Shown: in pieces, positions 4,635 to 41,041 of the stretch
Position numbering within the stretch: the first letter of the stretch is position 1
How the letters are laid out: each line of letters begins with the position of its first letter
Origin: an uncultured Clostridia bacterium
GTDB taxonomy: Bacteria > Bacillota > Clostridia > Christensenellales > Borkfalkiaceae
DNA length: 44,045 nucleotides
Direction of reading: 5' to 3'
Assembly: GCA_947625385.1 (NCBI GenBank)
Contig: CANQOB010000013.1
Coordinates: forward strand, 1 to 44,045
Program-made: the position numbers and the translations under genes
Notes under the pieces: model-generated
What the model was told of the DNA's origin: nothing
Databases searched by the model: none
The model's input: the letters and a program-made list of their open reading frames with translations, nothing else

Positions 4635-4635
4635 A

Positions 4636-22576: not shown

Positions 22577-22587
22577 ATATTCGATTC

Positions 22588-22945: not shown

Positions 22946-22962
22946 GGATCCTTGCAAACACT

Positions 22963-23217: not shown

Positions 23218-23224
23218 AGTAGTG

Positions 23225-23328
23225 AAAAAAGAGGCAAAAGAATCCGTCTGCCGAATCTCTTTCGGAGAGCGCACCCCTTTCGGGAGAGGGTCGGGCGGAA
23301 CAAAATTCCCAATCAAGGAGATCAAGTC
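23225..23328 (+). other. Structured 5' leader of the giant gene
   Basis: The leader can fold as a three-way junction. CCGTCTGCCGA (23244-23254) faces TCGGGCGG (23291-23298), enclosing hairpins CTCT-TTCGG-AGAG (23257-23269) and CCCT/AGGG (23275-23290). It resembles no riboswitch that I can name and may simply stabilise the long message. Confidence 0.4.
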
Positions 23329-26300
23329 ATGAAAAAGAAATGGATCGCTGCCGCAGCTGTATTTCTCTTCGGAGCGCTTGCGCTCTGCTTCGGCTGTGCG
23401 ACGGATGTCGCCGCAGAGAAGAGGACGGTCACTTTCCGGAACGGAGACGAGGTGTTTGCGGAGCAGGAAGTCACGCTCGGCGAAAAATACTCCTTCCCCG
23501 ACGAGACGCCCTCGCGCGAGCAGCCCGACGACGAACACCGCTATACGTTCGTCGGCTGGACGCTGGACGCAAATTACTATGAATACCGCAGCGAACTCAT
23601 CGAGGCGCCCGAAGAGGTGTATGCCGACCTCTCCGTGTATGCCGTTTTCCGCTTGGAGATCATCGACGGCAACACGGGGGACAACACGGACATCCCTTAC
23701 CGCGTGGAGTTCCGCATGCCGCGCGGCGAGGATTTCGGCGAGCAGTCGGGCGTCCTCCTCGAAGAGCAGACGGTCTACCGTCACGGCGACGCAACGATTC
23801 CCGACCCCGATGATATGCCGGTCATCAAGGGCTATCACTTCACGGGAAAATGGGAGGGCGGCTCGCTGACGGACGTCCGCGGGCACAGGCGCGTCACAGC
23901 CGTCTATGAGAAGAATATCTACAAGTATGTCTGGCACTATCTCGACCAAACGGTCGAGAGGGAAGCCGAATACCGCGAGAAGATCGACCTCACGCAGACG
24001 CCTGAGGCGGACAGCGCCTTCAAGTTCGAAGGCTGGTTCACCGACAGCGACCGCAAAACTCCCGCGACCCTCACGGAGATGCCCGACGGCGATGTGCATC
24101 TCTATGCCAAGCACACCGTCGATTTTTCCGTCGTGACCGTGTCCAAAGAGGGCAATATGGTCTACGGCGACCCCGCGAACAACCTGTTCATCGCGGGTCT
24201 CAAAGAGGCGGAGGGTTTAGAGTATTCTTTCCGCTGGACGGTGAACGGCTCGGCGGGGGATGTGACGGTAAACAGCTCGTATCCCTTGAAGGATGCAGGG
24301 ACGTACCATGTCGCCGTCCATGTCTTTGCGAACTATAAAGACGGCGTCCTCACCGACGAAGGGGATGCGTCGGTCGACGGAGACAAACAGTCCACCGTGT
24401 TCGAGATCGTTTTGGAACAGGCGACGCTCACGGCGGAACTTTCGATCTCGTCCCATTCCGTCGTCTACGGAAGCCCCGTCCCGCAAGCAACGATCACATA
24501 TTCTGGCTTTATGTTCGGGGAAACGGCGGAAAGCGTCGGCGTCCGCGAAGATTTCGTCTACCTTCAAGACGGCGAGGAGGCGGGACCGCAGTTCCATGTC
24601 GGCACCTATTCGGTGGAAGCGCGCCCGCATGCCCTCCGGAACTACAAGTTTGCGCCGATCGAACAGCCCGCCTTCGAGGTCACGAAGAAGCAGCTCGATG
24701 TCTCCGTGTCCTTTGCGGGCGGCGTCTACGGCGTCGAATTTGCCCCGACGTTCGCGTTCGAGGGCTTCGAATATGAAGAGAGCGAAAACGTCCTCGGGGA
24801 GCATTGGTTCACGGAGGGCGCGGAAAGGCTCGTCGGCGGCGAACGCCTCAACGCGGGCGCGCACAGCGTCAAACTCTTCGGATTTGCCTCGGACGACTAC
24901 GACGTCCGCCTTCCCGCGGAGGAGACGCACTTCACGATCGACAAGCGCACGGCGAGCGCGACGCTCTCCGCAGAGGGCGGTATCTACGGCGTCTCGCCCG
25001 AGCTCGGCTATGCGTTCGACAACGTGCTCGACGACGACAAGGGAAAATTCACGCCCGCATACTCCTTTGCCCGCGAAGGGACGGCGTATCCGGATACGGC
25101 GCGCTTTATCGTCGGCAACTATACCGTGACGGCGACCTTCACCGAGGAGGGGAGCGACAACTATGCGCCGCTCACGGTGACGGGGACGCACTTTACGATC
25201 ACGAAAAAGGCGCTCACGGTCGGCGTCTCTGTCCGTGAGAGCTATCTCTACGGCGAGACGGTCTCTCCCTCCCTCGTGTTCCGTGCGGAGGAATTCGCCT
25301 TCGACGAAAACGAAAGGACCCCCGGGTTTCTGACGGGCACGCTGCGCTATATTTACCGCACTGCCGCCGCGCCCGAAGCGGAGTACTCTTCCCCCCGCCA
25401 TGTCGTGGACAGCTACACCGTAGAGGCGTCGGGCTACGATTCCGCAAACTATGCGCTCTCCTTCCCCAAGACTTCTTTCGAGGTGACGCAGAAGGCGCTC
25501 ACCCTCACCGTGCATCTCCAATCGGATTCGCTGCTCTACGGCGAGCGTCCCGCACCCGCCTCCGCGTTTGCCGCTTTGAACGGCGTGGAGTATAACGGAT
25601 TTATCGCGGGCGAGACGCCGAACACCGTGTTCGGCAATAAGCTTCCGACGATCTCCTATCAGTCGGAGAGCGGGGAGCCGCAGAGCGAATTCCATGCGGG
25701 CAGCTATGTCGCGACCACGGGCGCGGAACTGCGCAACTATGCCGTGAGCGTCGTTCCCGCACGGTTCACGGTGAGACCGCGCACCCTGTATGTGGGCATC
25801 TCGCTCGTGAAAGCCGCCCTCGTTTACGGAGAAAAGCCGCAGGCGTCGGTCGTCTACACGCATGCGGGGTACGACGGCTTCCTCGAAGGCGAACAGTCGC
25901 TCGCCGCGGGCGCCTATCTCGAATACAGCGGCGCAGAGACCTATACGCAGAGCACGCTCTCGGACAGCGCGACCAAGATGATCGCGGGCAGTTATGCACT
26001 CTCCGTAAAGGGAATCCCCGCGCTTGATGACTATACGCTCACCTATCAGCAGGGCGTGACGGTCTCCGTCGCCCGCCGCGCGCTCACCGTCACCCTCACC
26101 GAGGGGAGCGGCGTCTACACCTACGGCGACACGCCGAAGGTCACCGTAACGTTCGGCGCATTCGCCTACGATGAGGATGAGACCTCGCTGTTCGGCGAAA
26201 GGGCGAGCACGATCCTCTACTTCAAGGACGGCGCTGCGGAGCAATATGCCGTGAAGAAGTACTTCGACGCGGGCAGTTATACGGCGACGCTCCAAGGACT

Positions 26301-29300
26301 CGAAAACGCGAACTACACCGTTGACGTCAAGGACGCTTCCTTCACCGTCAACAAGAAACTCCTCACCGTCACCGTGACGGCGGGCGGCTTCACCTACGGC
26401 GACCAAGACCGCCCCGCGCCCGCGCTCGGCTACAATGGGTTTGTTCCCGAGGAGGATGAGAACGTCCTCGGCGGCGAGCCCGTCTATACCTACCTGCGCG
26501 CTCGGGAGGATTACAGCGACAGACCGTACTTCGACGCGGGCAGCTACACCGTCTCCGTCAAGGGCTATTCCTCCGACAATTATCAGATCGAATATCAAAG
26601 CGGCAACTTCACCGTTGCAAGGCGCACCGCGGTCGCGACGCTTTCCGCACAGGGCGGCACCTACGGCGATACGCCCGCAGTGAGCTATTCCGCCCCCGCG
26701 GTCCTTGCGCGCGACCTCGACGGCTTCGGTTTCCGCTATACTTATACCTTCTCCCGCACGTCCAACGGCGGAAAGACGGAATACACCCCCGCAAACTATG
26801 CGCACTATCAGGCGGGCTGGTATCAGGTGACGCTCACCTACACGGCGAATGACAACTACACGTTCTCCGTGCGCTCTGCGACCTTCCGGATAGAAAAGAA
26901 ACCGCTCACCGTCGGCGTGGACGGCGTGGACGGCTCCTATGTCTATGGCAACGTGCCGTCGCCCGAACTCACCTTCCGCGGATTTGTGGGGGACGAGGGC
27001 GAATCGCAATTCACAGCCCGCCCCGAAGAGCCGTTCACCTATTACGAGGAAAGCGGTCGGAGCACGAATGTCCGCAACTTCCCCGTCGGGAGCTATTCCG
27101 TCGGCGCAACGGAGGGCTACACGGCGGACAACTACACCGTTTCGTCCGAAGAAAAGACGCCTTTCCGTGTCACGAAAGCCGACCTCACCGTCACCGTCAA
27201 GGCGGAGGACATCGTATACGGCGGCACGCCGAATCCCACCGTCTCTTATAGCCCGTTTGCCTTCGGGGAGGACGCCCGCGTTCTCAAAGGGAGCGCAAAC
27301 TATACCTATTTCCTCGGAGAAGCGCAAAAGGACGGCTTGCTCCATGCGGGCAAATACACCGTCAAGGTCGACGGCTTCACGTCGGCGAACTATGACATCC
27401 GCTATGTGAGCGGCAATTTCACCGTTGCGCAGAAACAGCTCACCGTCTCGGCTACCGTCGCAAACATCACCTACGGCGAGGAGCCTGTTCCGTCCGTAAC
27501 GTACCGCGGACTCATCCCCGGGGAAAGCGCCGACGACCTTCAAGGCGAACTCGTCTGCACCTATTCCGACGCGAAGAACAGCAAGGGCTTCCTCCGCGCG
27601 GGAGAACATACCCTCACGCTTTCCGGCTATCTGTCGGACGACTATGCGATCTCCTACGAGACCGCGACGTTCCGCGTCTCGCCCAAGCCCATCACCGTCT
27701 CCGTGACCGACGAAAACAATTTTGCGGACTCTATCTATGACGGAAGCCGCAAGCTCGGACTTTCGAGCACGGTCGAAGGGCTCGTGGACGGGGATACGGT
27801 CGAAGGGCTCGGAAGCCTTCGCTATGTCCTCAAAGGCACGCGCAACCCGAGCGCAGACGTCAACGGCGTGCTGCATGCCGACAGTTATACATTCACCGCG
27901 AGCGGCTATTCTTCGGAAGATTACACCGTTTCCTACGTCTATGGGACGGAGAGAAGGGACGAGGTCTCCTTCACCGTCTCTCCGACCGAAGTCCGGCTGT
28001 CCCTCAAAGACGGTTGGAGCGTCTACGGCGACGACACCGAGGGCGAATGGCTCACCGCAACGGGCTCTGTCTACAACGAAGAGCTCACATTCACGACGTC
28101 GATCGACAAGGACGGCACGACCTATACGGGCAAGGATCTCTATCTCCCTTGCGGCAAGTACACCGTGACCGTTTCGTATGATGTCAATCCCGACTACCGC
28201 GTCACTTCGGAGGGCGCAGAGCTCGAAGGCAGCGTTTCCGTCACCTTCACGGTCGCGCCGAAGAGCGTCAGGATCTCCGCTTCCGGCACCCAGCCGTGGG
28301 CGAAGAGGAGCGATTGGGCGTATGTTCCCACGCTCGACGACGATCGTTTCGTCCTCACGGGCACCATTGTCCTCAATAATCCCGCAGGGCTCGACGCCAA
28401 GGACTATCATGCAGACAGCGTGGGGGATGTGTTCGTGTGGCAGACCCCCTGCAAGATCACGCTCAAAGACAGCTCCGTCGAAGTGACGGACAACTTCACG
28501 TTCACCTATGCGTTCAACCTTACATTGAGCAATTCCGACTTCCGCATCGAGAAGCCCTCCGAAAGCACCGTCTCTTATGACAGCAGGGAGCATTCCTTCC
28601 AAGTCACGGCAACGGCGGAAGGCGTCGATACGAAGGACATCACGATCGAATACAAGACGGAAGAAGAAGGCGTATACAGCGCCTCCGTGCCCGCATTTAT
28701 CAACGCCGGCACGTACACCGTCTATTTCAAGGTGACAGCCGACAACTGCAAACCCGAAGAGGGGAACTTTACGGTCACGGTCAACAGAGCGACTCCCGAC
28801 CTCAAAGCCGCTACGGACAGCTCCGTCTATGTCTACAACAAGAGCACGCATCTCACCGAGGAGACGGTGCGAGGCGCCGTCATCCGTGGCAACGTGTATC
28901 ACGATGCGACCGTCGAGTACAGCCTCGACGCTTTGGGCTTCGGCGCGTTCCCGCAGGTCACGGACGCGGGCAGCTACACGATCACCGTCAAGGTCTCGGG
29001 CGACAACTACAACGAGAAGTCGGAGACGTACAGCTTCGTCATTGCCAAGGCGACGGTCGAAGTGCCCGAGATCGCGCACAAGACGTATAACAAAGAGCCG
29101 CAAAAGGCGGACGTAGACACGGAAAACGCGCTCTACACCGTCAGGAAGAACGACGGCGGCACCGCCGCAGGCAGCTACGACGTCGTGCTCGCGCTCACCG
29201 ACGGCTCCAACTACAAGTGGGCGGGACATGACGACGATGAGGAGAGCGCAGTGCTCACGCTGACATTTGTCATCGACAAGGCGACCCTCGACATGGGTAG

Positions 29301-32300
29301 CGTCAAGTGGAATTACGTCGAGGGCGCATTCACCTACGACAAGACTGCGCACAGCGTCGCGCTCACGGGACTTCCCGAAGAGGGCGACATTGAGGTCGTC
29401 TATCAACAGGAGAGCGGGACTGCCGCGGGCGAGTATCACGCCGTCGCGACCCTCACCTATGACGACACGAACTACAACGACATCACGACCGAATGGACGC
29501 TCACCTGGAACATCGCCAAGGCAAACTACACCGTGAGCGCCGTGACGGATGATGCGGGCTACACATACAACGGTGCCGCACAGGGGCGCACTGCGGAAGC
29601 CCTCAAAGCGCTCATCGAGGCGCTCGAAGGGGACGAGTTCGAAGTCAAGTTCGTCGGCAACAATCAGTTCACCGGCGCGGGCGACCACCCCGTCAAGTAC
29701 ACCGTTACGGGCAACAGCAACTATCACGACATCGAAGAGGGCACCTACACCGTGAAGATCGCCCAAGCCCAAGCCGCGATCGACACGAGCGCGATCACCT
29801 TCGGCGACCTTGCAAAGAACGATGAGTACACGTACAGCGCGACCTACAAGGGCGCGGCGTACACCGTCGACTGGAAAGCGGCGAAGCCCGCCGACGACTT
29901 CCACGGCACCCTCACGAAAGAGCACATTCATGTTGTGGGCGCAAGCTCCTTCACGAACTATCGAGACGGCGGCTACACCATCACGCTCACCATCGACGGC
30001 ACCGACAACTACAAGGGCGCGTCGCTCACCTATACGGTCAACATCAACAAGGCGACGCCCGTTGTGTCGGAGGGAGACGGCTCTTTCACCTACGACACGC
30101 ACGACAAGAAGGACGAGATCGCACAGAACTTCACCGCTACGGGCGTGTTCGGCGACGATTACACCGTCAAATACAGACTCGCCGAGGGCGAATGGCAGGA
30201 TAGCCTCCCCGCGATCACGAACGCGGGCACCTATCAGATCGGCGTGCAGATCTCGGGCGCGAACTACGAGACGGTCGAAGAGAGCTTCTCCGTCACGGTC
30301 GCAAAGGCCGAATTCAACACGGAGAGCGTCACCGATCCCGCAGCGGTCACCTACAACGGCAAGCCGCAGGGACGCACGCTCGACGAATTGAAGAGGCTCG
30401 TGACTGCGCTCGGCAGCGACGGGTTCGAAGTCACCTTCGAGGGCGAAGGGCAGTTCACCGACGCGGGCGAGCACACCGTCACGTACAAGGTCTCCGGCAA
30501 CGACAATTATGCGGAAAAGACGGGCACCTACACCGTCAACATCAACAAGGCGCAGGCGCAGCTCGACGTTGCGGGAATTACGACGGAATACACCTTCACC
30601 GCGGCTGAGCAGTCCGTCAACCTCAGTGCGGCAAAGGCGACGAGCGGTATCGTCGGCGCAGACGGCTACGGCGAAATTACGTTCGAGAAGGACGGGACGC
30701 TCATCACCGAGTTCAAGTTCACGAACGTCGGCGAGGGCAATGGCGTCACAATTACGGTGAAACTTGCCGACGGCAAGAACTTCACGGGGACGGAGGAGAC
30801 GATCACCCTCACCGTCGCCAAGGCAAATTATACCGTCAACGCGCCCGCGCAGAACTATGATTACGACGCGACCGAGCACGGCGAGGCGATCACCGTTTCG
30901 GGTCTCGCGGGAGACGCGCTCCAAGCGGGCGACTACACCGTCACCTACAACGGCGAAAAGAGCGTCGCAAAGTACAAGAATTATCAAGACGGCGGTTACA
31001 CCGTGCAGTATGCGGTCAGCGCGTCCAAGAACTACAACGCGGCGAACGGCAGCTACAAAATCACTATCAACAAGGCGAAACCGACCCTCGATGGCTTTAC
31101 GGACGAGAAGTCCTATACCTACGACAAAGATACCGAAACGCAGGTCGACGAGACGACGGTGCGCAGTGCGGTCGTCAAGGACAACGTCTTTGGCGACGAG
31201 ACCGTCGAGTACAGCCTCACGGGGTCTGCTTTCGGCGCGTTCCCGAACATCAAGAATGCGGGCAGCTACACGATCACGGTCAGGGTCTCGGGCGACAACT
31301 ACGAGACGAGGACGGCGACGTACACCCTCACAGTCGCAAGAAAGACCGTCACGGTGGAAAAGCTCACCGATATTGAAACGACCTACGACGGCAAACCGCA
31401 TAACCATGAGGTCAACGTCAATTTGGACGGCGACACGAGAGAAAACGTGGTGCAGGATATCAACTACGTTTACTCTGTGGGTGGCTCGGGCGTAGAAGAG
31501 ACGCCCAACTTTACGGATGTCGGCACCTATTCGGTCACCGTCACCGTCACGCCTACCTCGAACTACACGTTCGGCGACGGCATCGTATTCTCCACAAATT
31601 ACACCGTCACCATCAACAAGGCGCAGGCAGTCATCGACACTTCCGATATCGACTTCGGCGAACTTACGGGAGAGGGCGACGCGCGCTCCGCGACCTATAA
31701 GGGCACGCCGTACACCGTCGACTGGACGGCGGCGAAGCCTGCCGACGACTTCAACGGCACCCTCACGGAAGAAATTCAAGTCAGCGGTGACAGCTCCTTC
31801 ACGGACGCCAACACCTACACCGTCACGCTCACGCTCGCAGGTAACGACAACTATGAGGGCGACACGAAAGTGTTCACGATCACGATCGACAAGGCAAAGG
31901 CGGTCATCGACACGAGCGCGATCACTTTCGGCGACCTTGTAAAGGGCGGCGATGAGTATACGTACAGCGCGACCTATCGCGGCACGCCGTACCCCGTCGA
32001 TTGGAGCAAGGCGACTTCCAACTTCGGGACCGTCACATTCAACGAGACGGAGATCAAGAACGCCGCCACCTACACCGTCACCCTGTCCGTTGCAGAGACC
32101 CCCAACTACGAGGGTGATACGAAGGAATTCACGATCACGATCAACAAGGCAAAGGCGGTTGCGCCCGACGAGAAGCCGACGAAGATCGAGGATGTGCTTC
32201 GCGCCAAGGGCAAGACGCTCGGCGAGGTCGAACTTTCTGCTCCTTACTTCTGGGTGAATGCAGGGGAGGAGCTCGGAGTTCAGCCGAGCAGAACGGCGCA

Positions 32301-34872
32301 GGCATACTATAACCCCGATTCCGCAAACTACGAAAACAGCGACCCGTTCGCTGTCACGATCACAACGATCAAGACGACGATCACCGTCAACGAAAATGCG
32401 GTTTACGGCGTCGATTGGGCGGAGACGTTCGATGAAGCCGCGTTCAAGACATGGTTCTTCGAAACGGCATGCGGGCTCTCTGCATTCGATATCGATTTGA
32501 ATTTGAATTCCGCGGATACGAAGATCGGAAGCACCTATCTTTCGACGTTCACTTTGCCCGCGGTAATGCAGGATTACTACGAATTCAGCACGGGCGAGAT
32601 CTCTGTTGACATCGTATTCAAAATCAAATCTGTCGACGTCGGCGGCACGCTGTACACTATTGAGGACGCGCTCGAGACGGCGCAAAACGGCACCGTCACC
32701 GTCAAGCACGATACGGCATTTGCGACGCAGGACATCGCCGACAGGGCAGGGTATAAGGACGGTTGCTACACGGTTAAAGCAAACGTCACACTCCTGTTGC
32801 CTTATGATGGCGGCAGTGCGTGGAACGGTACGCCTGGAACAAATAGTAGCGGGACAAATACCATGTCCTTTGGGAACGCCAACAATTGCAAATTAACTTT
32901 GCAAATACCTGAGAGCATAGTACTCACCAATCATGGTACAATCAATGTCGGCGGTTATACAACGGGCAGCAGCGGCGGTGCTACGGCGGGGCAAACCTTT
33001 GGCGACTATGCAAAGATTGAACTTGGTGAAGCAGCCAAGATTGATTCGTACGGCAATATCAATGCCTATGGCTTTATCGTAGAAGCAGCACAAAATAATA
33101 GCTCCGAAGTCCACATGCACACGGGCACGCTCACCATGCCGTTTATTGTGGTCGAGTTCCGCGGCGGTTCGGCTTACTTCGGAATTTATGGCAATATGCA
33201 AGGTACGCCGTTCAATCGGTTTATGATGCACAATGTTACATCAAAACTTATTGTGGAATCTCTGGCGAAATTGAACGGACATGCAAACCTGCATACGGGC
33301 ACCCCGAATCAGGATAACACCACAGATATTCAGCTGATCGGAAGCGATACAAGCCATTTGATTCAATTACTTGACGATGCACGCTTGGAAGCGAAATTAC
33401 AGGCAAAGGCATTTGATACAAATAATGCAGTTGTAGAAACGAAAGTTGATATATACGGCAATATGAAGTTGAATGCTATGACTTTGGAAATCAGTGCGCT
33501 TGGGCAAGAATTGAAACTTTCAACTGCATCGGTATTTTTCCCGCTCTCCTGGCAGTGGCAGGTCTCGTTGAATAAGTTGGGCGATCAAAATGTCACAGCA
33601 GATTTGCTCAGCCAAAAGATCAAACTTCTTCCTGGTGCTTCGCTCACGATTGGAGAAGGTGTAATCGCAACAGCTTCCGAAATTGCGGTTTATGGCGCAA
33701 AAGATTGGACTGATACAAAAGTTAGCGCCCCGAGCGTGTACCCGAATAAAGACGATGCAAGTCTGACCGTCAACGGTACATTAAATATTGATGTTTTGGG
33801 TGGCAAAATTTCGTCTAAGCATGAGGGCGCGGAAGTCAAAGTCGGCACGACTTCGGTTGTCACACATGAACTGACTTCGGCTAGTATGACGAGCTCTAAG
33901 TGGACAGATATAAGTCTTACTTTAATGCCAGTCAATAGCGATAATACAATAAACGATGCGGCAAGTGGCACATGGTATTATAAGGATAATGTGTGGGTTG
34001 GACCCGATACACAATTTGAGATTGATTATGCATTTGTGTTCAAGGATGCAGAAGGCAATGTGCAAAAGGAAGAAAGTGTGCCTATAAATCCCAATCCTTC
34101 GATACGCACGCCGGGAATGGGTTCATTTGCGTTACAGCCTGCATCCTGCGAAGGTTGGACCTTTATCGGTTGGTTTACCGATGAAGCTTGCTCTGAACAA
34201 AATGCAATCGGTCAAATCAGTGGAACATTGTACGATAATTGTCAGCTCTTCGGTTTGTTCCAAAAAGTGGATGCTTACGTCATTTCTTACAATACGGAAT
34301 ATCCGGATGACTATACGTTGCCGAGTGATAAAGCAATGGCTATCGGTTCGGAAACCGTGCTGGCACAGGATATCCAAACCTTTGATCCGAAAAAATACGA
34401 CGATATCATGACGAAATACGACTATGATGTGAACGTACAGTATTATTTCGATGGTTGGTATGTCGACCGGCAGTTGACGAAAGAATATTCTCTCGACAAT
34501 CTGAAAGAGATGTATGGCGAAACGACCGGCGCAACGCCTGTCAACCTCTATGCGAAATGGACAAAAAAAGTCACTTTGACGATAAATCTTGAAGCACTAG
34601 GGGAATATGGATTTTTAAGCCCTGGTGCAACTAAAACTGCAAGTGTGGTCGTGACTTTTAGCGGTACAGACTTTTCATTGCAGAAGAGCGTGACAAGTGA
34701 GGGAGGAAGCATGTTCACCGGCGGTCCTAATAAACAGACTGACACCATAACCATTTATCTAAAACCCGAGCAAACATATACGATTAGCAGTCATGAAGGC
34801 ACACTATCCGGCACCGCGAACGGTACGGCAGAAGCGGGTAAGGACATCACCATTACCGTCAGCAACACATAA
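23329..34872 (+). CDS. Giant exported repeat protein with InlB- and MBG-like repeats
   Basis: The product is 3,847 residues; AAGGAG 8 bases upstream selects ATG 23329. A signal peptide ends near LALCFGCATD, with a plausible but imperfect lipobox (Cys23). InlB B-repeat-like units follow (FVGWTLDANYY, KGYHFTGKW, FEGWFTDSD). About 15 MBG-like repeats of roughly 85-95 residues span nt 24160-28260, typified by YGDxPxPxVxYxGF ... AGSYTVxxxGYxSxNY ... FTVxKKxLTV. About 14 shorter repeats (TYNGKPQGRTLDEL type, ending YTVNINKAQ) span 28560-32160. The rest is a beta-rich region with many T/N/G turns and final InlB-like units (FIGWFTDEACSEQ, FDGWYVDR). There is no LPxTG motif or C-terminal membrane helix, so retention must be by lipid anchor or partner proteins. 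It is probably an adhesin or surface-layer scaffold; specific binding is unknown. Confidence 0.85.
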   Translation: MKKKWIAAAAVFLFGALALCFGCATDVAAEKRTVTFRNGDEVFAEQEVTLGEKYSFPDETPSREQPDDEHRYTFVGWTLDANYYEYRSELIEAPEEVYADLSVYAVFRLEIIDGNTGDNTDIPYRVEFRMPRGEDFGEQSGVLLEEQTVYRHGDATIPDPDDMPVIKGYHFTGKWEGGSLTDVRGHRRVTAVYEKNIYKYVWHYLDQTVEREAEYREKIDLTQTPEADSAFKFEGWFTDSDRKTPATLTEMPDGDVHLYAKHTVDFSVVTVSKEGNMVYGDPANNLFIAGLKEAEGLEYSFRWTVNGSAGDVTVNSSYPLKDAGTYHVAVHVFANYKDGVLTDEGDASVDGDKQSTVFEIVLEQATLTAELSISSHSVVYGSPVPQATITYSGFMFGETAESVGVREDFVYLQDGEEAGPQFHVGTYSVEARPHALRNYKFAPIEQPAFEVTKKQLDVSVSFAGGVYGVEFAPTFAFEGFEYEESENVLGEHWFTEGAERLVGGERLNAGAHSVKLFGFASDDYDVRLPAEETHFTIDKRTASATLSAEGGIYGVSPELGYAFDNVLDDDKGKFTPAYSFAREGTAYPDTARFIVGNYTVTATFTEEGSDNYAPLTVTGTHFTITKKALTVGVSVRESYLYGETVSPSLVFRAEEFAFDENERTPGFLTGTLRYIYRTAAAPEAEYSSPRHVVDSYTVEASGYDSANYALSFPKTSFEVTQKALTLTVHLQSDSLLYGERPAPASAFAALNGVEYNGFIAGETPNTVFGNKLPTISYQSESGEPQSEFHAGSYVATTGAELRNYAVSVVPARFTVRPRTLYVGISLVKAALVYGEKPQASVVYTHAGYDGFLEGEQSLAAGAYLEYSGAETYTQSTLSDSATKMIAGSYALSVKGIPALDDYTLTYQQGVTVSVARRALTVTLTEGSGVYTYGDTPKVTVTFGAFAYDEDETSLFGERASTILYFKDGAAEQYAVKKYFDAGSYTATLQGLENANYTVDVKDASFTVNKKLLTVTVTAGGFTYGDQDRPAPALGYNGFVPEEDENVLGGEPVYTYLRAREDYSDRPYFDAGSYTVSVKGYSSDNYQIEYQSGNFTVARRTAVATLSAQGGTYGDTPAVSYSAPAVLARDLDGFGFRYTYTFSRTSNGGKTEYTPANYAHYQAGWYQVTLTYTANDNYTFSVRSATFRIEKKPLTVGVDGVDGSYVYGNVPSPELTFRGFVGDEGESQFTARPEEPFTYYEESGRSTNVRNFPVGSYSVGATEGYTADNYTVSSEEKTPFRVTKADLTVTVKAEDIVYGGTPNPTVSYSPFAFGEDARVLKGSANYTYFLGEAQKDGLLHAGKYTVKVDGFTSANYDIRYVSGNFTVAQKQLTVSATVANITYGEEPVPSVTYRGLIPGESADDLQGELVCTYSDAKNSKGFLRAGEHTLTLSGYLSDDYAISYETATFRVSPKPITVSVTDENNFADSIYDGSRKLGLSSTVEGLVDGDTVEGLGSLRYVLKGTRNPSADVNGVLHADSYTFTASGYSSEDYTVSYVYGTERRDEVSFTVSPTEVRLSLKDGWSVYGDDTEGEWLTATGSVYNEELTFTTSIDKDGTTYTGKDLYLPCGKYTVTVSYDVNPDYRVTSEGAELEGSVSVTFTVAPKSVRISASGTQPWAKRSDWAYVPTLDDDRFVLTGTIVLNNPAGLDAKDYHADSVGDVFVWQTPCKITLKDSSVEVTDNFTFTYAFNLTLSNSDFRIEKPSESTVSYDSREHSFQVTATAEGVDTKDITIEYKTEEEGVYSASVPAFINAGTYTVYFKVTADNCKPEEGNFTVTVNRATPDLKAATDSSVYVYNKSTHLTEETVRGAVIRGNVYHDATVEYSLDALGFGAFPQVTDAGSYTITVKVSGDNYNEKSETYSFVIAKATVEVPEIAHKTYNKEPQKADVDTENALYTVRKNDGGTAAGSYDVVLALTDGSNYKWAGHDDDEESAVLTLTFVIDKATLDMGSVKWNYVEGAFTYDKTAHSVALTGLPEEGDIEVVYQQESGTAAGEYHAVATLTYDDTNYNDITTEWTLTWNIAKANYTVSAVTDDAGYTYNGAAQGRTAEALKALIEALEGDEFEVKFVGNNQFTGAGDHPVKYTVTGNSNYHDIEEGTYTVKIAQAQAAIDTSAITFGDLAKNDEYTYSATYKGAAYTVDWKAAKPADDFHGTLTKEHIHVVGASSFTNYRDGGYTITLTIDGTDNYKGASLTYTVNINKATPVVSEGDGSFTYDTHDKKDEIAQNFTATGVFGDDYTVKYRLAEGEWQDSLPAITNAGTYQIGVQISGANYETVEESFSVTVAKAEFNTESVTDPAAVTYNGKPQGRTLDELKRLVTALGSDGFEVTFEGEGQFTDAGEHTVTYKVSGNDNYAEKTGTYTVNINKAQAQLDVAGITTEYTFTAAEQSVNLSAAKATSGIVGADGYGEITFEKDGTLITEFKFTNVGEGNGVTITVKLADGKNFTGTEETITLTVAKANYTVNAPAQNYDYDATEHGEAITVSGLAGDALQAGDYTVTYNGEKSVAKYKNYQDGGYTVQYAVSASKNYNAANGSYKITINKAKPTLDGFTDEKSYTYDKDTETQVDETTVRSAVVKDNVFGDETVEYSLTGSAFGAFPNIKNAGSYTITVRVSGDNYETRTATYTLTVARKTVTVEKLTDIETTYDGKPHNHEVNVNLDGDTRENVVQDINYVYSVGGSGVEETPNFTDVGTYSVTVTVTPTSNYTFGDGIVFSTNYTVTINKAQAVIDTSDIDFGELTGEGDARSATYKGTPYTVDWTAAKPADDFNGTLTEEIQVSGDSSFTDANTYTVTLTLAGNDNYEGDTKVFTITIDKAKAVIDTSAITFGDLVKGGDEYTYSATYRGTPYPVDWSKATSNFGTVTFNETEIKNAATYTVTLSVAETPNYEGDTKEFTITINKAKAVAPDEKPTKIEDVLRAKGKTLGEVELSAPYFWVNAGEELGVQPSRTAQAYYNPDSANYENSDPFAVTITTIKTTITVNENAVYGVDWAETFDEAAFKTWFFETACGLSAFDIDLNLNSADTKIGSTYLSTFTLPAVMQDYYEFSTGEISVDIVFKIKSVDVGGTLYTIEDALETAQNGTVTVKHDTAFATQDIADRAGYKDGCYTVKANVTLLLPYDGGSAWNGTPGTNSSGTNTMSFGNANNCKLTLQIPESIVLTNHGTINVGGYTTGSSGGATAGQTFGDYAKIELGEAAKIDSYGNINAYGFIVEAAQNNSSEVHMHTGTLTMPFIVVEFRGGSAYFGIYGNMQGTPFNRFMMHNVTSKLIVESLAKLNGHANLHTGTPNQDNTTDIQLIGSDTSHLIQLLDDARLEAKLQAKAFDTNNAVVETKVDIYGNMKLNAMTLEISALGQELKLSTASVFFPLSWQWQVSLNKLGDQNVTADLLSQKIKLLPGASLTIGEGVIATASEIAVYGAKDWTDTKVSAPSVYPNKDDASLTVNGTLNIDVLGGKISSKHEGAEVKVGTTSVVTHELTSASMTSSKWTDISLTLMPVNSDNTINDAASGTWYYKDNVWVGPDTQFEIDYAFVFKDAEGNVQKEESVPINPNPSIRTPGMGSFALQPASCEGWTFIGWFTDEACSEQNAIGQISGTLYDNCQLFGLFQKVDAYVISYNTEYPDDYTLPSDKAMAIGSETVLAQDIQTFDPKKYDDIMTKYDYDVNVQYYFDGWYVDRQLTKEYSLDNLKEMYGETTGATPVNLYAKWTKKVTLTINLEALGEYGFLSPGATKTASVVVTFSGTDFSLQKSVTSEGGSMFTGGPNKQTDTITIYLKPEQTYTISSHEGTLSGTANGTAEAGKDITITVSNT
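24160..28260 (+). repeat. About 15 tandem MBG-like repeats in the giant gene
   Basis: Units open with YGD, YGE or YGV near 24160, 24468, 24723, 24981, 25240, 25531, 25822, 26118, 26390, 26657, 26938, 27214, 27466 and 28018, a period of about 260-300 bases. One divergent unit with YDG lies near 27735. Units have diverged at DNA level, so they are not recent copies. Confidence 0.8.
28560..32160 (+). repeat. Second repeat class in the giant gene, with near-identical DNA copies
   Basis: About 14 units contain TYNG, TYDK or ATYKG near their starts and AGTYT or AGSYTITV near the middle. Some are close at DNA level: about 29786-29900, 31640-31740 and 31898-32010 share long identical stretches, and 28950-29020 resembles 31230-31300. 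This suggests recent duplication or gene conversion. Confidence 0.75.
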
Positions 34873-34879
34873 CCAACCA

Positions 34880-34909
34880 TTTCCTGCGCGGCGGGAGCCG
34901 CGCAGGAAA
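34880..34909 (+). other. 13-bp hairpin between the giant gene and the ABC ATPase gene
   Basis: TTTCCTGCGCGGC pairs perfectly with GCCGCGCAGGAAA around a GGGA loop. It is followed by A-rich sequence, not T, so it is not an intrinsic terminator. It could stabilise or process the message between a very long and a short cistron. Confidence 0.75.
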
Positions 34910-34943
34910 ACAAAATAAACCAACTCTACGGAGGATATGAATC

Positions 34944-36164
34944 GTGAATCTTGAATTACTTGCACTTGTCGGTTGGCAAATTCCCGTCCTTGCGGTACTT
35001 GTCGCCGTCATCGTACTCATTGTCGCGTTCCAGGGGTACCTGCTCTTTTTGCTCTTCAAAAAACCCAAAAAGAAGGCAGAAAAGTCCGATGAAACGCCTC
35101 GGGAACTCGCCGTCTGCTGCGTAGCGGCGTCATCCGCCGAGGAGCCTGTCGAAGAGCCCGTCGAGGAGCCCGCTCCCGTTGAGGAACCCGTCGAGGAGCC
35201 CGCTCCCGTCGAGGAGCCCGCTCCCGTCGAGGCGCCCGCTCCCGTCGAAGAGCCTGTCGAGGAACCCGCTCCCGCCGAAGAACCCGTCGAGGAACCCGCT
35301 CCCGTCGAGGCGCCCGCCAATGAAACGGCGGAGGAGATTCTCGAAGAGTACGGTCTTGAAAGCGTGGAAGAGATCACGCCGGAGATCGCAGAGGAGATCA
35401 TGGCGGTGCCCACCCACCACGACGAGGAGGCGAGGGAAGTCGTCTGCGTCGAGGGGCTCTACAAGAAGTACTCGAAGAAGGCGGATTACGCCGTTGCGGA
35501 CGTGAATTTCCGCTGCTATGAGGGCGAGATCGTCGGACTTTTGGGACATAACGGCGCGGGGAAATCCACGACGCTCAAATGTCTCGAAGGGATGCTTCCG
35601 TTCGAGAAGGGGAACATCTCCATCTACGGGCACGACGTCATCAAAGAGCCCATCGAAGCGAAGGCGAACATGGGCTTTGTCACGGACAACCATGCGACCT
35701 TCGTCAAGATGACGGGCATGCAATATCTCTCCTTCATGGCGGACGTGTATAAAGTGCCGAACGAAGTGCGCAAGGAGCGCGTGGAGCAGCTCGAAGAGAT
35801 CTTCCAGCTCGGCGACGCGATCAACAACCTCATTTCCTCTTATTCGCACGGCATGCGGCAAAAAGTGTGCATGATGGGCAGTCTTATGCACATGCCCAAG
35901 CTGTGGGTTTTGGACGAGCCGATGACCGGTCTCGACCCGCGCACCATGCACGCGGTGCAGCAGTTCATGCGCGAGTATGCGAACAAGGGCAACTGTATCA
36001 TCTTTTCGTCCCACGCCCTCATCACCGTGGCGAGGATGTGCGACCGCGTCGTGCTTCTCCGCACGGGGCATCAGCTCGACGATCTCAACATCAAACGTCT
36101 CATGACGGTAGACCCCAATTTCGACTTCGAGGAGTATTTCTTAAAGCATGAAAGACAGGATTGA
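34944..36164 (+). CDS. Membrane-anchored ABC transporter ATPase with acidic Pro-Glu linker
   Basis: The 406-residue product has an unusual front end: a transmembrane helix at about residues 13-38, then KKPKKK, then an acidic proline-rich linker (about 64-128) made of EEPAPVEEP-type repeats. Only then comes an ordinary ABC ATPase, with Walker A GHNGAGKST at 201-209, signature YSHGM at 300-304 (common in ABC-2-type exporters), Walker B LWVLDEPMTGLDP with Asp324-Glu325, and the switch histidine in SSHAL. GTG 34944 follows GGAGG at 9 bases; the nearer ATG at 34937 is out of frame and closes at once. The permease gene overlaps its end by 17 bases. The ATPase should energise that permease at the inner face of the membrane; the long linker suggests tethering to another partner. 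Confidence 0.88.
   Translation: MNLELLALVGWQIPVLAVLVAVIVLIVAFQGYLLFLLFKKPKKKAEKSDETPRELAVCCVAASSAEEPVEEPVEEPAPVEEPVEEPAPVEEPAPVEAPAPVEEPVEEPAPAEEPVEEPAPVEAPANETAEEILEEYGLESVEEITPEIAEEIMAVPTHHDEEAREVVCVEGLYKKYSKKADYAVADVNFRCYEGEIVGLLGHNGAGKSTTLKCLEGMLPFEKGNISIYGHDVIKEPIEAKANMGFVTDNHATFVKMTGMQYLSFMADVYKVPNEVRKERVEQLEEIFQLGDAINNLISSYSHGMRQKVCMMGSLMHMPKLWVLDEPMTGLDPRTMHAVQQFMREYANKGNCIIFSSHALITVARMCDRVVLLRTGHQLDDLNIKRLMTVDPNFDFEEYFLKHERQD
35138..35320 (+). repeat. Tandem repeats encoding the Glu-Pro-Ala-Pro-Val linker
   Basis: Copies of gaggagcccgctcccgtc and close variants repeat about nine times. They encode alternating EEPVEEPAPV units. Copy number is likely to vary between strains. Confidence 0.85.
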
Positions 36165-37836
36165 TTTCAGACAAGTGGGAACGCTCCTCCGCAAACAGCT
36201 GCAAGAGCGTGCATCCGCCTATAAAAAGGGAAACTTCGATGTATTCGGGTTTCTTCTTCGCTGGTTTCTCGTTGCGGTGTTTCTTGCGGTGTTCATCGTC
36301 TTTTTCGGACGGTTCACCGACATCTATCTCTCCGTCAAGACGGCGGGCGTCTTACAGGAAAGAACGCGTCTTTACGAACTTCTCTCCATCGTGTACACGC
36401 TCATCCTGCTCTTCCTCGTGATCGGCGGAATCTCGCAGATCAACCGCCGTCTCTTCGACGCGGACGACATCAAGCTCCTCATGGGGATGCCCGTGGGTGC
36501 GCGCACGATCTTTGTGGCGAAGCTCATCTCTATCTATTTCGGGCAGCTCTTGGTCTCTGCGGCGTGCGTGCTCTCCGTGAACGTTACGGTCGCCATCCAT
36601 GTCCCGCAGGATTGGATCTTCTATCTGATGACGGCGGTGTTCTGCTTCCTGCTCCCGCTCGTCTCGCTTGCGATCTCCGCTTTGGTCGCGATGCCGTACC
36701 ATGCCGTCAAACAGTTTCTCAAAAACCGTTTCGTTCTGTACTTTATCCTCATCACGCTGCTGACGGGAGCGCTCTTCTATGTGTACTCCGTCGTGCTCGG
36801 CGCGGTGCGGGATATGCTCCTCGGGGATTCTCTCCGCTATTTCTTCAACGAACAGGTGATGAGCTTCTTGCAGACGGTGACGAAATACCTCTATCCCGGC
36901 GTGTGGATAGCGGACTTCCTTCTCGGACAGAATCTGCTCGTCGCCGGGCTCGGGCTTCTGGGCGTGCTCGTGGTCTGTCTCGTGATTGCGCTCGTCGTCA
37001 TCCGCAGCCTCATGCGCTGGGTGATGCAGTCGAGAATCGCGGGGGACGTCAACTTCATTCGCCGCAAGAGCGAGATAAGACAGCAAAAGCATCCCTTCCT
37101 TGCGCTGATGAAAAAGGACTTCTTGCTCATCTTCCGCACGCCCTCCTACACGTTCTCGTACTTTTCGGTCGCGGTCGTCATGCCGCTCATGGTGTACTTC
37201 TGTATGACGATCGGCTCCTCCATCGTCACGAAGCTCGTCGGCATGAACTGCAATGTGGAGATCGCGATTCTCTTGACGTTTCTCTTCGGTGCGCTCACGA
37301 ACGTGTTCTGCGCGACGAATATCAGCCGCGAAGGGGAGATGTTCCTCTCGGAGAAGGCTTATCCCATCGACTATAAAGCGGTGTTCTTCTCCAAAGTGCT
37401 GCTCTGTTTGTTCGTGACGGCGGTCTCCCAGCTCATCAGCGCGGTGCTGCTCGCCGCCACGGGCTATATCGTGTGGTGGGCGGCGCTCTTCATCTTCCTC
37501 GGCGGCGTTCTGTGCAGCTTTGCGCAGATCTGTTTCGCCACGCGCTACGACTTCAATCACGCCAAGTTCTCCACCGAGGAGGACGGCGAGATCAAGGAAT
37601 CCGGCAATACGGTGAGCGCGGTCATCGTGCTCGGCATGGCGGTCTCCTTCCTCGTCGGCGGGAGCGTGCTCCTCTTGCGCCTTGTCTTTGCGCTCCGCCC
37701 CGTCGTCGGGCTCGACTATCTCACCTATCTCATCGTGGGCGTCGTGTCGATGTGCGCCGCCGGACTTGCTTATTATTATCTCATACGCAAACTCGGAAAG
37801 AAATACCATGAGTTCAGCGGGGGAGGTCAAATGTGA
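36148..37836 (+). CDS. ABC transporter permease (ABC-2-like exporter, about 12 helices)
   Basis: The 562-residue product has about twelve hydrophobic segments in two sets of six, separated by a basic cytoplasmic loop (RRKSEIRQQKHPFLALMKKDF) around residues 305-330. The layout fits the large single-chain permeases of the putative ABC exporter group (ABC-2 superfamily) in Firmicutes. No extracellular domain of any size is present. It overlaps the ATPase gene upstream and shares the ATGTGA junction with the surface protein gene downstream, so the three are translationally coupled. Substrate cannot be read from the sequence; the neighbouring surface proteins, a lipid or a drug are all possible. 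Confidence 0.85.
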   Translation: MKDRIDFRQVGTLLRKQLQERASAYKKGNFDVFGFLLRWFLVAVFLAVFIVFFGRFTDIYLSVKTAGVLQERTRLYELLSIVYTLILLFLVIGGISQINRRLFDADDIKLLMGMPVGARTIFVAKLISIYFGQLLVSAACVLSVNVTVAIHVPQDWIFYLMTAVFCFLLPLVSLAISALVAMPYHAVKQFLKNRFVLYFILITLLTGALFYVYSVVLGAVRDMLLGDSLRYFFNEQVMSFLQTVTKYLYPGVWIADFLLGQNLLVAGLGLLGVLVVCLVIALVVIRSLMRWVMQSRIAGDVNFIRRKSEIRQQKHPFLALMKKDFLLIFRTPSYTFSYFSVAVVMPLMVYFCMTIGSSIVTKLVGMNCNVEIAILLTFLFGALTNVFCATNISREGEMFLSEKAYPIDYKAVFFSKVLLCLFVTAVSQLISAVLLAATGYIVWWAALFIFLGGVLCSFAQICFATRYDFNHAKFSTEEDGEIKESGNTVSAVIVLGMAVSFLVGGSVLLLRLVFALRPVVGLDYLTYLIVGVVSMCAAGLAYYYLIRKLGKKYHEFSGGGQM

Positions 37837-40800
37837 GAAAGAATATCATTGCGCTCATGCTTGTTCTGCCCATTTTGTTTGTGCTCGTCGTGTACAGCGC
37901 GGTGAACACGGCAAGTCTGGACGTGCCGATCACCGCAAACGGGATAGAGATCATGGAGCGCTATCCGAACGATACCGTCACCATCGACCTTGCAGACTAC
38001 GGCGAGACCTTCGAGATCACGCCCCGCGTCACCCCGGCGAACGCGAGCAACCGCGCGTTCGAATACCGCTATGAGCGCATCTCCGGCTCGATGTCCGAGG
38101 AAGAGGTCGCTGCGGGCGGCGTGGTGGAGGTCGTGACCGACAGCAGCGGTACGGACAAGATTCGCGCGCATGCGGTGGGAACGGTGCGCATCGTCGCCGT
38201 CAGCAAGGACGGCGGCTTCGAGGACAGCATCACGGCGATCGTGGGTGCGTCCAAGCCCTATGCGTTTGATTTTTCGCTCTACAAGGCGGACGATGCGGGC
38301 AAAAACGACGTGCTCGAAGCGGACGGAGACGGCTACACCGCCGCCGTCCCCGCGGGGCAGTACGGATACAGTATCCGCTTGAAACCCAACACCTACCTCA
38401 GCCCGTCGTTCGAGATCTCGGAGGGCTTTGTCCGCCCCGATCTCTCGCGGGGGACGCTCATGCTGCCCTTCACCGGGAAAACGGCGTTCGACGTCGTCAT
38501 CCCGAGCGGGGTGGACGGAACGCTCGTGCGGCACGTGGAACTCGATGTCGTCAATCCGGAGCTCGCCTCGGCGGGATTCTCCGTCAACGGAGAGACGGAC
38601 GCACGCACCGCCGTGCAGTATGACAGGGAAGCCAACCGCGCAGAATTTTTCATCGAGGCGGCAGAGAAACCCGCGGTCGAATGCGCAGACGCGGAATCCG
38701 TCGAAATCTCGCAAGTCGAAGGCACCCAAAACGGCTGGCAGGTCGTAGCGGAGCTTCCCCCGGTCGAGGACGGCGAGGAATTCACGTTCTATGTCACCGC
38801 GGGCGGAAAATCGAGGACGGTCACCGTCACGCCGCAGGAGTTTTTGTTCAGCATCCGCACGGATATGCCCGTATTTGACGAAGAGGCGGGGACCAACATC
38901 CTGATGGGCACGCCCGTCTCCTTCTATGCCGTCCCCAACGTCGCGACCACGGGCATCACATACCGTTGGGACGCGTACAACGTCGAGGACATGAATAAAC
39001 TCGACATGGATCTCTCCGCCGGGGAAGATCATTCGGTCTGTACGATCACCGCGAACGAACGGGATACCTTCATCCTCGTCGTCGAGGCGCTCCGCAACGG
39101 CGAGCCCATCTATAATTCGGACGCGCACGAAGTCGTCGTGGAGGTCATCAACAACGTCATCGAGGTGACGGGCGTGGACACCAGACTGGGACTTGCGAAG
39201 AGCCGCGCCGTTGCGGGTCTGAAATACGAGAACGGAGAGAAAGTCAAGAACATCTATCCCGTCCCCGTGACCGCGTACAGCCCCTCGGGCGCCCTCGCGG
39301 ACGGCATTTACGACCTCGACTTTTCGGTCTCCTCCAAGATCGCGGAGGTCGTCCGCGATGACTTCGGCGAACCGCTCATGGAGGACGGCTGCATCTTCCT
39401 CGACATCAAGGGGAAGGGGACCGTCACGCTGCATGCCGACTGGAAGGGCAATGCGGAATGGCGCGCAGACGAGACTCCCGTGGGGAGCGATATCGTCCTC
39501 ACCGTGGACAGCGAAGCGGTCGAAGTCACGACGAGCAACCAATTCTTCACGGAGACGGCGGCGGGCAATCCCGTTGTCCTCGGGGCGGACATCATGCTCG
39601 GCACCGACGACTTCGGCAGGGCGCTCGATGTCGAGACCAGACGGGGCATGATCAAGAGCATGCGCTCCACCTATAACACGCAGTTCTACGAGACGACGGG
39701 GCAAGACGAGCAGGCGTACGTCAGCTATGTGGCGGAGATCAAGAACGATCTGTACGGCAACGGGTATACGGTCTGCGGGGAATATTTCTCCAACGCGCAG
39801 GGGAATGCGGGAGAGCCGCTCTTCTTCAAGGGACCGCGCGCCCTCGTCAAGCTGGGCGATATGGCGTCCGTCGCCGCACAGGACAATATCGTGTTCCTCT
39901 GCCGCACGGACGGGGTGACGATCTATAACGCGGAGCTCCTCGGGTGCAGCGACGAATCGCGCAGAAATCCCGAGACGCAGCTCGACGATCTGACCACGCT
40001 CAACAATACCGGCACCGTTCTCGAGATCAACGCGGACGTCAACGTTTTCAACTGCCGCATCCGCAACGGGCGCAATGTCGTGCGCGTGTACGGCGGGAAC
40101 CGCAGCGGCACGAACTACTTCATCGAATCGTTGTCCGAGAACCGTACGACGTCTCAGGACCGGATCGTTGTGCGCATCGAGGGATGTATCCTCTCGCATA
40201 GCAGGGAATTTATCGTCAAGACGGGGACGAACCGGGCTCTGCGCGCAAGCGCCCGCCTCGGAAGAGAGCCCTATCTCACGGACAGAAACGGCAGAAATTA
40301 TCAGTCGCAGACGGACAGCTATCTCGACGACGACTTCTTCTATTCGACGTATGTGCTCACCGACCTTACAATCGCCGACTGCGTGCTCTCGACAAGCGGA
40401 CTGTTCTGTGTGGGCGTCGAGTCGAACTTCGCGGGGGAAGCGCTGTGCGAGGGCGGACGGTATGCCGGGCACGAGGTCATCGGACAGTGGGTCGGCGTGG
40501 GCGGCACGTCGTTTGCGGCGACGGTCAGGCTTGAAGGGGACGTGAGAATGTACGACTGGAAAGATTTGAAAAACGTCAACAGCGAGACCCTCATTCAGGC
40601 GAATTCCCCGGATTTTCCGCTCAAACTGGATATCGGTGCCATGATCGAGTACGTCAGCAGCAACGACCCGTCCCGTTACGGGAGCATCGTCGACGCGCAG
40701 GACGGCGTGAACTATGTGCACGGCGGCATCGCGGTGTACGGCGGCGGCAGAAATTATTCACAGCTCTCGCTGCGCGGGCTCGACCCCGCTCGGGCGAGCG

Positions 40801-40994
40801 GACTCGAGGAGTTCGATGTCAATCTCAGCGAGCTCGAAAGCGCCGAGGGCGAAGTGGGCGGCTTGGGACAGCTCCTGCCGCTCGCCGCGGGAACGCAGAG
40901 CTTCCGCTTCTTCCTGTACGATTCGAAGAGCGCCAACAACAGAGCATGGCAAGAAAACGCGTCTTACACCGTACAGCCCGTTCCCTTCGAATAA
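37833..40994 (+). CDS. Large surface protein with Ig-like and beta-helix-like regions
   Basis: The 1,053-residue product starts at GTG 37833 inside the permease stop (ATGTGA), with GGAGG 6 bases before. Residues about 5-24 form a signal peptide or signal anchor (NIIALMLVLPILFVLVVYSA) without a lipobox. Residues about 30-450 look like several beta-sandwich Ig/BIG-type domains (ITPRVTPANASNRAFEYRY, HAVGTVRIVAVSKDGGFED). Residues about 580-960 are rich in short N/G-turn strands (LYGNGYTVCGEYFSN, VTIYNAELLGCSD, INADVNVFNCRIRNGRNVV), typical of right-handed parallel beta-helices. No catalytic triad or family signature is visible. It is last in the operon and ends at an 18-bp terminator hairpin. 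It may be a substrate or extracellular partner of the transporter. Confidence 0.8.
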   Translation: MRKNIIALMLVLPILFVLVVYSAVNTASLDVPITANGIEIMERYPNDTVTIDLADYGETFEITPRVTPANASNRAFEYRYERISGSMSEEEVAAGGVVEVVTDSSGTDKIRAHAVGTVRIVAVSKDGGFEDSITAIVGASKPYAFDFSLYKADDAGKNDVLEADGDGYTAAVPAGQYGYSIRLKPNTYLSPSFEISEGFVRPDLSRGTLMLPFTGKTAFDVVIPSGVDGTLVRHVELDVVNPELASAGFSVNGETDARTAVQYDREANRAEFFIEAAEKPAVECADAESVEISQVEGTQNGWQVVAELPPVEDGEEFTFYVTAGGKSRTVTVTPQEFLFSIRTDMPVFDEEAGTNILMGTPVSFYAVPNVATTGITYRWDAYNVEDMNKLDMDLSAGEDHSVCTITANERDTFILVVEALRNGEPIYNSDAHEVVVEVINNVIEVTGVDTRLGLAKSRAVAGLKYENGEKVKNIYPVPVTAYSPSGALADGIYDLDFSVSSKIAEVVRDDFGEPLMEDGCIFLDIKGKGTVTLHADWKGNAEWRADETPVGSDIVLTVDSEAVEVTTSNQFFTETAAGNPVVLGADIMLGTDDFGRALDVETRRGMIKSMRSTYNTQFYETTGQDEQAYVSYVAEIKNDLYGNGYTVCGEYFSNAQGNAGEPLFFKGPRALVKLGDMASVAAQDNIVFLCRTDGVTIYNAELLGCSDESRRNPETQLDDLTTLNNTGTVLEINADVNVFNCRIRNGRNVVRVYGGNRSGTNYFIESLSENRTTSQDRIVVRIEGCILSHSREFIVKTGTNRALRASARLGREPYLTDRNGRNYQSQTDSYLDDDFFYSTYVLTDLTIADCVLSTSGLFCVGVESNFAGEALCEGGRYAGHEVIGQWVGVGGTSFAATVRLEGDVRMYDWKDLKNVNSETLIQANSPDFPLKLDIGAMIEYVSSNDPSRYGSIVDAQDGVNYVHGGIAVYGGGRNYSQLSLRGLDPARASGLEEFDVNLSELESAEGEVGGLGQLLPLAAGTQSFRFFLYDSKSANNRAWQENASYTVQPVPFE

Positions 40995-41002
40995 TCTGTT
41001 TT

Positions 41003-41041
41003 CCAAGCAAAAATCCGCCGAAACGGCGGATTTTTGCTTGG
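41003..41041 (+). terminator. Terminator of the giant-protein/ABC operon
   Basis: A perfect 18-bp stem (41003-41020 with 41024-41041) with an AAA loop contains TTTTT in its 3' arm and is followed by T-rich sequence. Confidence 0.8.

Follow-up and report, generated by a model that had tools for sequence, protein, structure and literature searches.

A conserved ABC gene trio that co-occurs with giant surface proteins in one order of Clostridia

The window analysed here, a stretch of 44,045 nucleotides, is one entire contig of a 1.66 Mb genome (63 contigs, 95% complete) whose named relatives are assemblies of 'uncultured Clostridia bacterium'. Between positions 23329 and 40994 it carries four large genes, all on the plus strand, encoding a giant surface lipoprotein (23329..34872), an ABC ATPase (34944..36164), a permease (36148..37836) and a further surface protein, here called the third subunit (37833..40994). 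The ATPase and permease genes overlap by 17 nt, and the permease and third genes by 4 nt. A first-pass annotation of this DNA had described four large genes on one strand, with overlaps among the last three and no clear terminator between them, and all of this was borne out: the only strong terminator, an intrinsic one with a stem of 18 pairs and a T-rich tail, closes the unit at 41003..41041. The terminator scan listed no site in the spacer between the giant and the ATPase genes, and the sites listed inside genes were weak, the region having 27 terminator-like sites vs 18.8 expected. The open frame of the giant spans 23176-34872; read from the ATG at 23329 it yields the 3,847 residues given earlier, a length identical to that of the database prediction P0020, whereas the start previously assigned to the region, 23225, lies upstream of this likely start codon. 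A promoter-like site upstream of the giant (TTGCCT-17-TATAAT, 23189..23217) is a weak candidate, since 11 such sites occur in the region vs 7.1 expected.

By eye, the N-terminus of the giant, MKKKWIAAAAVFLFGALALCFGC, reads as a lipoprotein signal when set against what we take to be the lipobox pattern. Pfam profiles recognized in this protein Flg_new repeats and at least 8 MBG_2 stretches, the latter with 109.7 bits vs a cut-off of 25, which places it among the MBG-repeat surface proteins. Residues 3147-3538 (P0001; 32614..33789) make up a domain of ~390 aa that is common to the giants found with this system and is called CORE hereafter. Its predicted structure (pLDDT 83.8, pTM 0.87) is probably a right-handed beta-helix. 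Searching with CORE retrieved nothing below E 0.001 from a viral library and no informative relative among PDB sequences. The giants, which we regard as candidate clients of the ABC genes, come in two layouts: a lipoprotein giant immediately before the ATPase, as in the window, or a giant with a signal peptide, a C-terminal hydrophobic segment and a KGG-like tail, followed by a lipoprotein of ~200 aa. Several CORE giants of the loci L155-L160 end in such a hydrophobic segment and KGG-like tail, often with the ~200-aa lipoprotein next; this ending may be a signal for anchoring or sorting that has not been described. As the giants have signal sequences of their own, their export needs no ABC protein.

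The spacer that follows the giant gene holds a 13-bp RNA hairpin lacking a U-tract (34880..34909; -30.3 kcal/mol with z -5.4, equalled by 0 of 200 shuffled sequences), which perhaps serves in 3'-end protection or partial attenuation. As a conserved element, this hairpin was set aside: stems of at least 10 Watson-Crick pairs come after 12 of 39 CORE giants vs 44 of 222 other ORFs, a weak trend in a comparison whose control ORFs are unverified frames and whose stem finder misses bulged stems (e.g. that of L133). Stems of 10-19 pairs lie near the hairpin place in the lipoprotein-type loci L030, L032, L034, L045, L048 and L147, and their printed sequences differ.

The ATPase (406 aa) starts with a hydrophobic segment, continues with KKPKKKAEKS and a linker containing 36 Glu and 21 Pro in 116 residues, and ends in the nucleotide-binding domain. 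It matches the Pfam family ABC_tran (PF00005) with 91.9 bits; a Walker A (GHNGAGKS), a signature-like SHGM, an LDEP and an H-loop SSH can be read in its sequence, and having Walker A, signature, Walker B and H-loop it belongs to the ABC superfamily. The solved chains nearest to it are ABCA-type domains, with NosF also listed. The variable part of the protein is the N-terminal anchor with the Glu/Pro linker: a hydrophobic N-terminus was found in 5 of 44 scorable ATPases, representing 4 distinct contigs, and a CxxC...CxxC motif in 5 of the 44, the rest being without either. The ATPase 'with its own anchor', on which the first-pass annotation proposed to base searches, does have a hydrophobic N-terminus here; given its frequency among relatives, we rejected the anchor as a hallmark of the system in favor of a local variant.

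The permease is a single chain of 562 aa. It had been announced as a 12-helix protein; a crude hydrophobicity window gave 14 segments and, given the crudeness of this window, we describe it as having 12-14 helices. With all of these in one chain, it shares the single-chain layout of the transmembrane domain with type V ABC exporters. The match of the window permease to PF16949 (ABC_tran_2) stays below threshold, at 15.2 bits vs a gathering cut-off of 25.7; nevertheless 9 of 13 permease relatives match this family at E 0.1 or better (best 1.3e-8), so that the permease is likely to be distantly related to PF16949 (ABC-2 type). When compared with PDB sequences the permease (P0003) gave no match at E 1. 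In one locus (L143:827-2490) the permease is encoded by two genes with an overlap of 4 nt, for products of 304 and 250 aa, an arrangement that fits two halves in one chain.

The third subunit (1,053 aa), of which the window member was scanned, has no Pfam match and no NCBIfam name. An AlphaFold model built from 18 rows (mean pLDDT 84.8, pTM 0.79) predicts a transmembrane (TM) helix at residues 2-27, about five Ig-like domains at 37-565, according to our own reading, and a beta-rich region at 568-1053. This last region, the head, is perhaps a beta-helix, as suggested by its strand pattern and by a sub-threshold Beta_helix match in one distant relative. The beta-helix that the first-pass annotation saw in this protein is thus consistent with the strands of the full-length model; the fold search could not speak for it, because its lists were filled by Ig domains. 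Indeed, the matches listed for the whole subunit were almost all Ig-like or S-layer chains, including the S-layer proteins SbsB, SbsC, EA1 and Sap, and in this Ig-filled list NosD was absent. A PDB sequence search with the subunit retrieved no informative relative, and the only match of the head among PDB sequences was a designed protein at E 0.33. Sequence kinship between CORE and the head was also considered, and none was found by hhalign. Across 40 non-redundant members the mean pairwise identity was 0.51 for the TM segment, 0.48-0.51 for the head and 0.23-0.37 for the stalk; such conservation of the TM segment would be expected from packing against the permease.

A conserved neighbourhood across related species had been named beforehand as the test of the proposed gene set, and such a neighbourhood was found. 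Of 61 related genomes, 15 contain relatives of the third protein: 14 among the 37 of the genus (the source genome included) and 1 among the 24 from other families. These 61 genomes hold 19 close permeases (at least 39% identity, E 4.5e-95 or better), and all 19 adjoin a third-gene match. One further third gene (G033 C36) begins at base 5 of its contig, which puts its permease out of view. The source genome itself contains a second set on contig C8, made up of a 2,918-aa giant, a 204-aa lipoprotein, the ATPase, the permease and the third gene. Among 51 mapped third-gene loci, one of them a duplicate (L130, on the same contig as L031), the permease gene lies directly upstream on the same strand in 49, the remaining two (L051 and L140) being contig ends; in 43 of the 49 the permease and third genes overlap by 1 or 4 nt. 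A CORE giant is present within the fetched stretch in 33 of the 51, on the same strand every time. The trio of ATPase, permease and third gene was mapped in eight families of the order (f1, f3, f6, f16, f19, f24, f29 and f32). With the head as query, 3 of 391 genomes of the class matched, all from the genus of the source genome, and 1 of 299 genomes of the phylum, namely the source genome; the third-gene family is confined to one order in these class and phylum samples.

The presence of CORE giants follows that of the third gene. In 297 genomes of the order, 45 had both, 12 the third gene only, 2 CORE only and 238 neither, when CORE was scored at E 1e-6 or better and strong third-gene matches down to E 6.2e-52, a cut of our own choosing. 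Hence 45 of the 47 CORE genomes carry the third gene, CORE appears in 2 of the 240 genomes without it, and 12 of the 57 third-gene genomes are without CORE. Within the genus the counts were 14, 0, 1 (G004) and 22 in the same order, so that all 14 third-gene genomes have CORE vs 1 of the 23 others (Fisher p 2.5e-9); both the counts and the test treat genomes as independent, ignoring phylogeny, and a single loss can remove neighbouring genes jointly. A strong third-gene match is found on the contig of 41 of the 83 CORE places, in every case within 16 kb and in 40 cases on the same strand. The remaining 42 overcount the unlinked places, because no more than two third-gene candidates were scored per genome. 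Thirteen CORE stretches from contigs without a strong third-gene match were inspected: one (G104 C10) has the trio and 12 do not, among them two each in G054 and in the CORE-only genome G222; in four of the trio-less stretches (L153, L154, L157 and L161) the contig ends near the giant. In G054, G269 and G303 the trio stands beside other genes without a CORE neighbour, the CORE giants being on other contigs, and the stretches fetched around those giants contain no trio. That the third gene and CORE track each other by genome also when they are not adjacent points to a functional, and not only a positional, link, and we consider the association itself firm.

These results bear on the two outcomes that the first-pass annotation had listed against itself. 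The four genes lying apart in relatives describes part of what was seen, as some giants do lie apart, but the trio is conserved and linkage held in 41 of 41 same-contig pairs; an ATPase and permease that always pair with unrelated neighbours is contradicted by the 19 close permeases adjoining the same third gene. With 19 of 19 pairings and 41 of 41 linkages, neither outcome holds as worded, the first applying in part. The four-gene set does vary, in that 12 of 57 third-gene genomes lack CORE and the giant lies downstream, not upstream, in 16 of the 41 same-contig places. The single machine that had been pictured is in keeping with this conserved gene unit, although a machine is a conjecture drawn from gene data.

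Outside the order, five genomes of the class sample have CORE without the third-gene head. The CORE proteins in question are smaller than the giants, and the stretches fetched around them, some of which are short, show no ABC pair of the trio kind. Three such loci in one genome (L176, L177 and L181) have CORE proteins that adjoin long pilin-like proteins of 481-544 aa. Taken with the 12 third-gene-only genomes, these five imply that neither partner requires the other everywhere. Over 30 loci, one pair of which is a duplicate, distances of CORE and of the third gene correlate with a Spearman coefficient of 0.33, compared with 0.87 for permease and ATPase, and the window CORE is unlike that of its nearest third-gene relatives (distance 0.70 vs 0.36). 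On these grounds the pair does not look tightly co-evolving. The low co-evolution with the trio and the CORE proteins without a third gene outside the order weakened the proposal that CORE is an exclusive docking domain; it may rather be the working end of the client. In L087 and L162, CORE proteins adjoin small exported proteins that share a GFSSW motif at the N-terminus and that we take to be reminiscent of fibre proteins such as TasA.

The N-terminus of the third subunit, comprising the TM helix and the first Ig domain, also matches proteins of the order that differ in their remainder. In 12 of 14 loci with such a match, hand-picked from the listing, the gene immediately upstream encodes an ABC permease and has the same orientation (the exceptions are L193 and L195). 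Four of the loci (L184, L185, L191 and L192) show a tandem pair of anchored outside subunits after one permease gene. Starting instead from the permease, we fetched 16 of its 32 weaker matches: five are clearly followed by an anchored protein (L084, L085, L089, L090 and L095), the distant permease of L087 by a protein related to the third subunit over its full length, those of L091 and L097 by weak matches, and eight by none. The anchored protein is therefore a frequent, not a constant, partner of trio-type permeases, and we regard it as a regular subunit of ABC systems, one whose outside portion is exchangeable.

Several known systems resemble the trio in part. NosDFY, which serves N2O reductase maturation, consists of the ATPase NosF, the ABC-2 permease NosY and the beta-helix protein NosD. 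Like the trio, it is an ABC unit of three genes, one of which encodes a beta-rich protein outside the membrane; this protein acts (in our case, is proposed to act) on another extracytoplasmic protein, and the solved chains related to the window ATPase include NosF. In contrast, the permease and the beta-rich head have no sequence match to Nos chains in the PDB, no NosD Pfam match was obtained in 38 third-subunit members, and the trio differs by its Ig stalk, membrane anchor, single-chain permease and giant surface partner. By analogy, we read the trio as possibly working like NosDFY without being NosDFY. An ABC complex alongside a giant surface protein recalls the giant adhesin SprB. The Flavobacterium ABC complex GldAFG is required for a process using this surface adhesin (PMC5682007). 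The GldA equivalog TIGR03522 is the second best NCBIfam match of the window ATPase, whose score of 170 falls short of the cut-off of 402.6, and the source genome is without an outer membrane marker: an Omp85 search gave no match in it and was positive in 7 of 14 control genomes, from which we conclude that the cell is probably monoderm.

Closer in architecture are the type V exporters of Bacillus subtilis, EcsAB, YthPQ, AlbCD and SkfEF, which combine one ATPase gene with one permease chain holding all transmembrane helices, as in the trio (PMC11466899); loss of Ecs alters cell wall proteins in Staphylococcus aureus (PMC2996298). The available portions of these two descriptions mention no stalked third subunit or giant partner, and profile scans found no EcsB family match in the window permease or its relatives. 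The teichoic acid exporter TagGH offers a precedent for a membrane helix within an ATPase, as its ATPase subunit has a TM helix and an outside domain (PMC11466899); in that subunit the outside domain is C-terminal and reached through the helix, whereas the anchor of the trio ATPase is N-terminal and a local variant. Mechanotransmission of the MacB/LolCDE type, in which ABC energy acts on partners outside the membrane, is what we propose for the trio in general terms; those transporters have a type VII fold with FtsX-like bundles of 4 TM helices, and not the ABC-2-like permease of 12-14 segments found here (PMC10094684, PMC11466899). The earlier impression that no described system has exactly this set agrees with our own: in the literature reachable by search, which leaves subscription journals largely aside and absence unproven, we found no account of an ABC trio with a giant, or of an ABC system that combines giant partners with an outside subunit on a stalk.

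Gene order, overlaps, conservation, co-occurrence and domain make-up are best explained, in a tentative reading to which we give somewhat less than an even chance, by a tripartite ABC complex that would touch giant CORE surface proteins with an outside arm and handle them mechanically. The products of the last three genes would form one membrane complex of two ATPase copies, one single-chain permease with two halves and the single-pass third subunit, whose TM helix and first Ig domain would dock on the permease. According to the predicted model, the Ig stalk could place the head, which is beta-rich and perhaps beta-helical, inside the monoderm wall or beyond it. ATP binding and hydrolysis would drive the permease, and the movement would pass through the membrane to the anchored arm, which would assemble, extend, position or release membrane-anchored CORE giants, encoded either beside the machine, as in the window, or elsewhere in the genome.

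The main rival keeps the same structure without the contact: the trio would export a cargo other than the giants (a glycan, a lipid or a small peptide) that anchors or decorates their surface layer. The resemblance of permease and ATPase to ABC-2 or type V-like exporters speaks for such an exporter, as do the third-gene genomes without CORE and the related ABC pairs that accompany other outer proteins in the order; we nonetheless consider it rather unlikely, since the third gene and CORE go together genome by genome, even where they are not neighbours. That same pattern weighs on the simpler notion of a surface-gene neighbourhood gained and lost as a block, in which the ABC system and the giant have separate jobs. 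The patchy presence in the genus (14 of 37 genomes) is like that of fast-turnover surface loci, and CORE exists without the third gene outside the order, but a mere neighbourhood would hardly recur as the same set in eight families, nor would CORE sit on other contigs of third-gene genomes while being found in only 2 of 240 genomes without the third gene; we judge this account improbable.

A sensory or protective ABC system, whose outside arm would be a receptor for host or microbial molecules as in Bce-type transporters with an extracellular domain, would suit a constant ABC core whose large ectodomain is exchangeable and a two-component pair upstream in the window (20464-22429); it does not predict any link to CORE giants and appears very unlikely to us. 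Least probable of all, with hardly a chance, is a gliding-like apparatus in which the ABC complex drives or loads giant adhesins in the manner of GldAFG and SprB. A giant repeat protein and a GldA-like ATPase do invite the comparison, yet Flavobacterium gliding uses an outer-membrane type IX system, the GldA score is far below its cut-off and the source genome has no Omp85 marker.

To return to the complex that handles CORE giants, an ABC pump usually inherited with enormous surface proteins suggests an undescribed machine that builds or operates the cell surface. A broader proposal, doubtful at present, is that of an undescribed, order-wide tripartite ABC family of monoderm gut Clostridia, with a constant core of ATPase, single-chain permease and anchored Ig stalk and with exchangeable heads, the window subtype being an ATP-driven handler of CORE giants whose clients would be encoded both adjacently and elsewhere. 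To our knowledge, how surface proteins of several thousand residues are assembled or moved in monoderm bacteria is still mostly an open question. A testable handle on it is offered by a conserved ABC core that accompanies the giants, with defined proteins, a common client domain and naturally occurring variants that have or lack clients. This core also indicates a family of accessory ABC subunits made of a TM helix, an Ig stalk and an exchangeable head.

The surroundings of the four genes contain further features. Directly upstream of the giant lies a class A RNase P RNA gene (22587-22950), followed by a terminator-like site (to 22981), and before it the two-component pair at 20464-22429, composed of a HisKA_3 kinase and a LuxR-type regulator. 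Another pair, at 3873-5973, encodes a LytTR regulator and a GHKL kinase. The frame at 5907-11861 (1,984 aa) has glycoside hydrolase family 3 domains in an unusual order, the C-terminal domain coming first. Right after the terminator that closes the unit there is an ArsR-type regulator (41159-41416), and small frames that resemble it by eye come after the trio in L032, L046 and L047.
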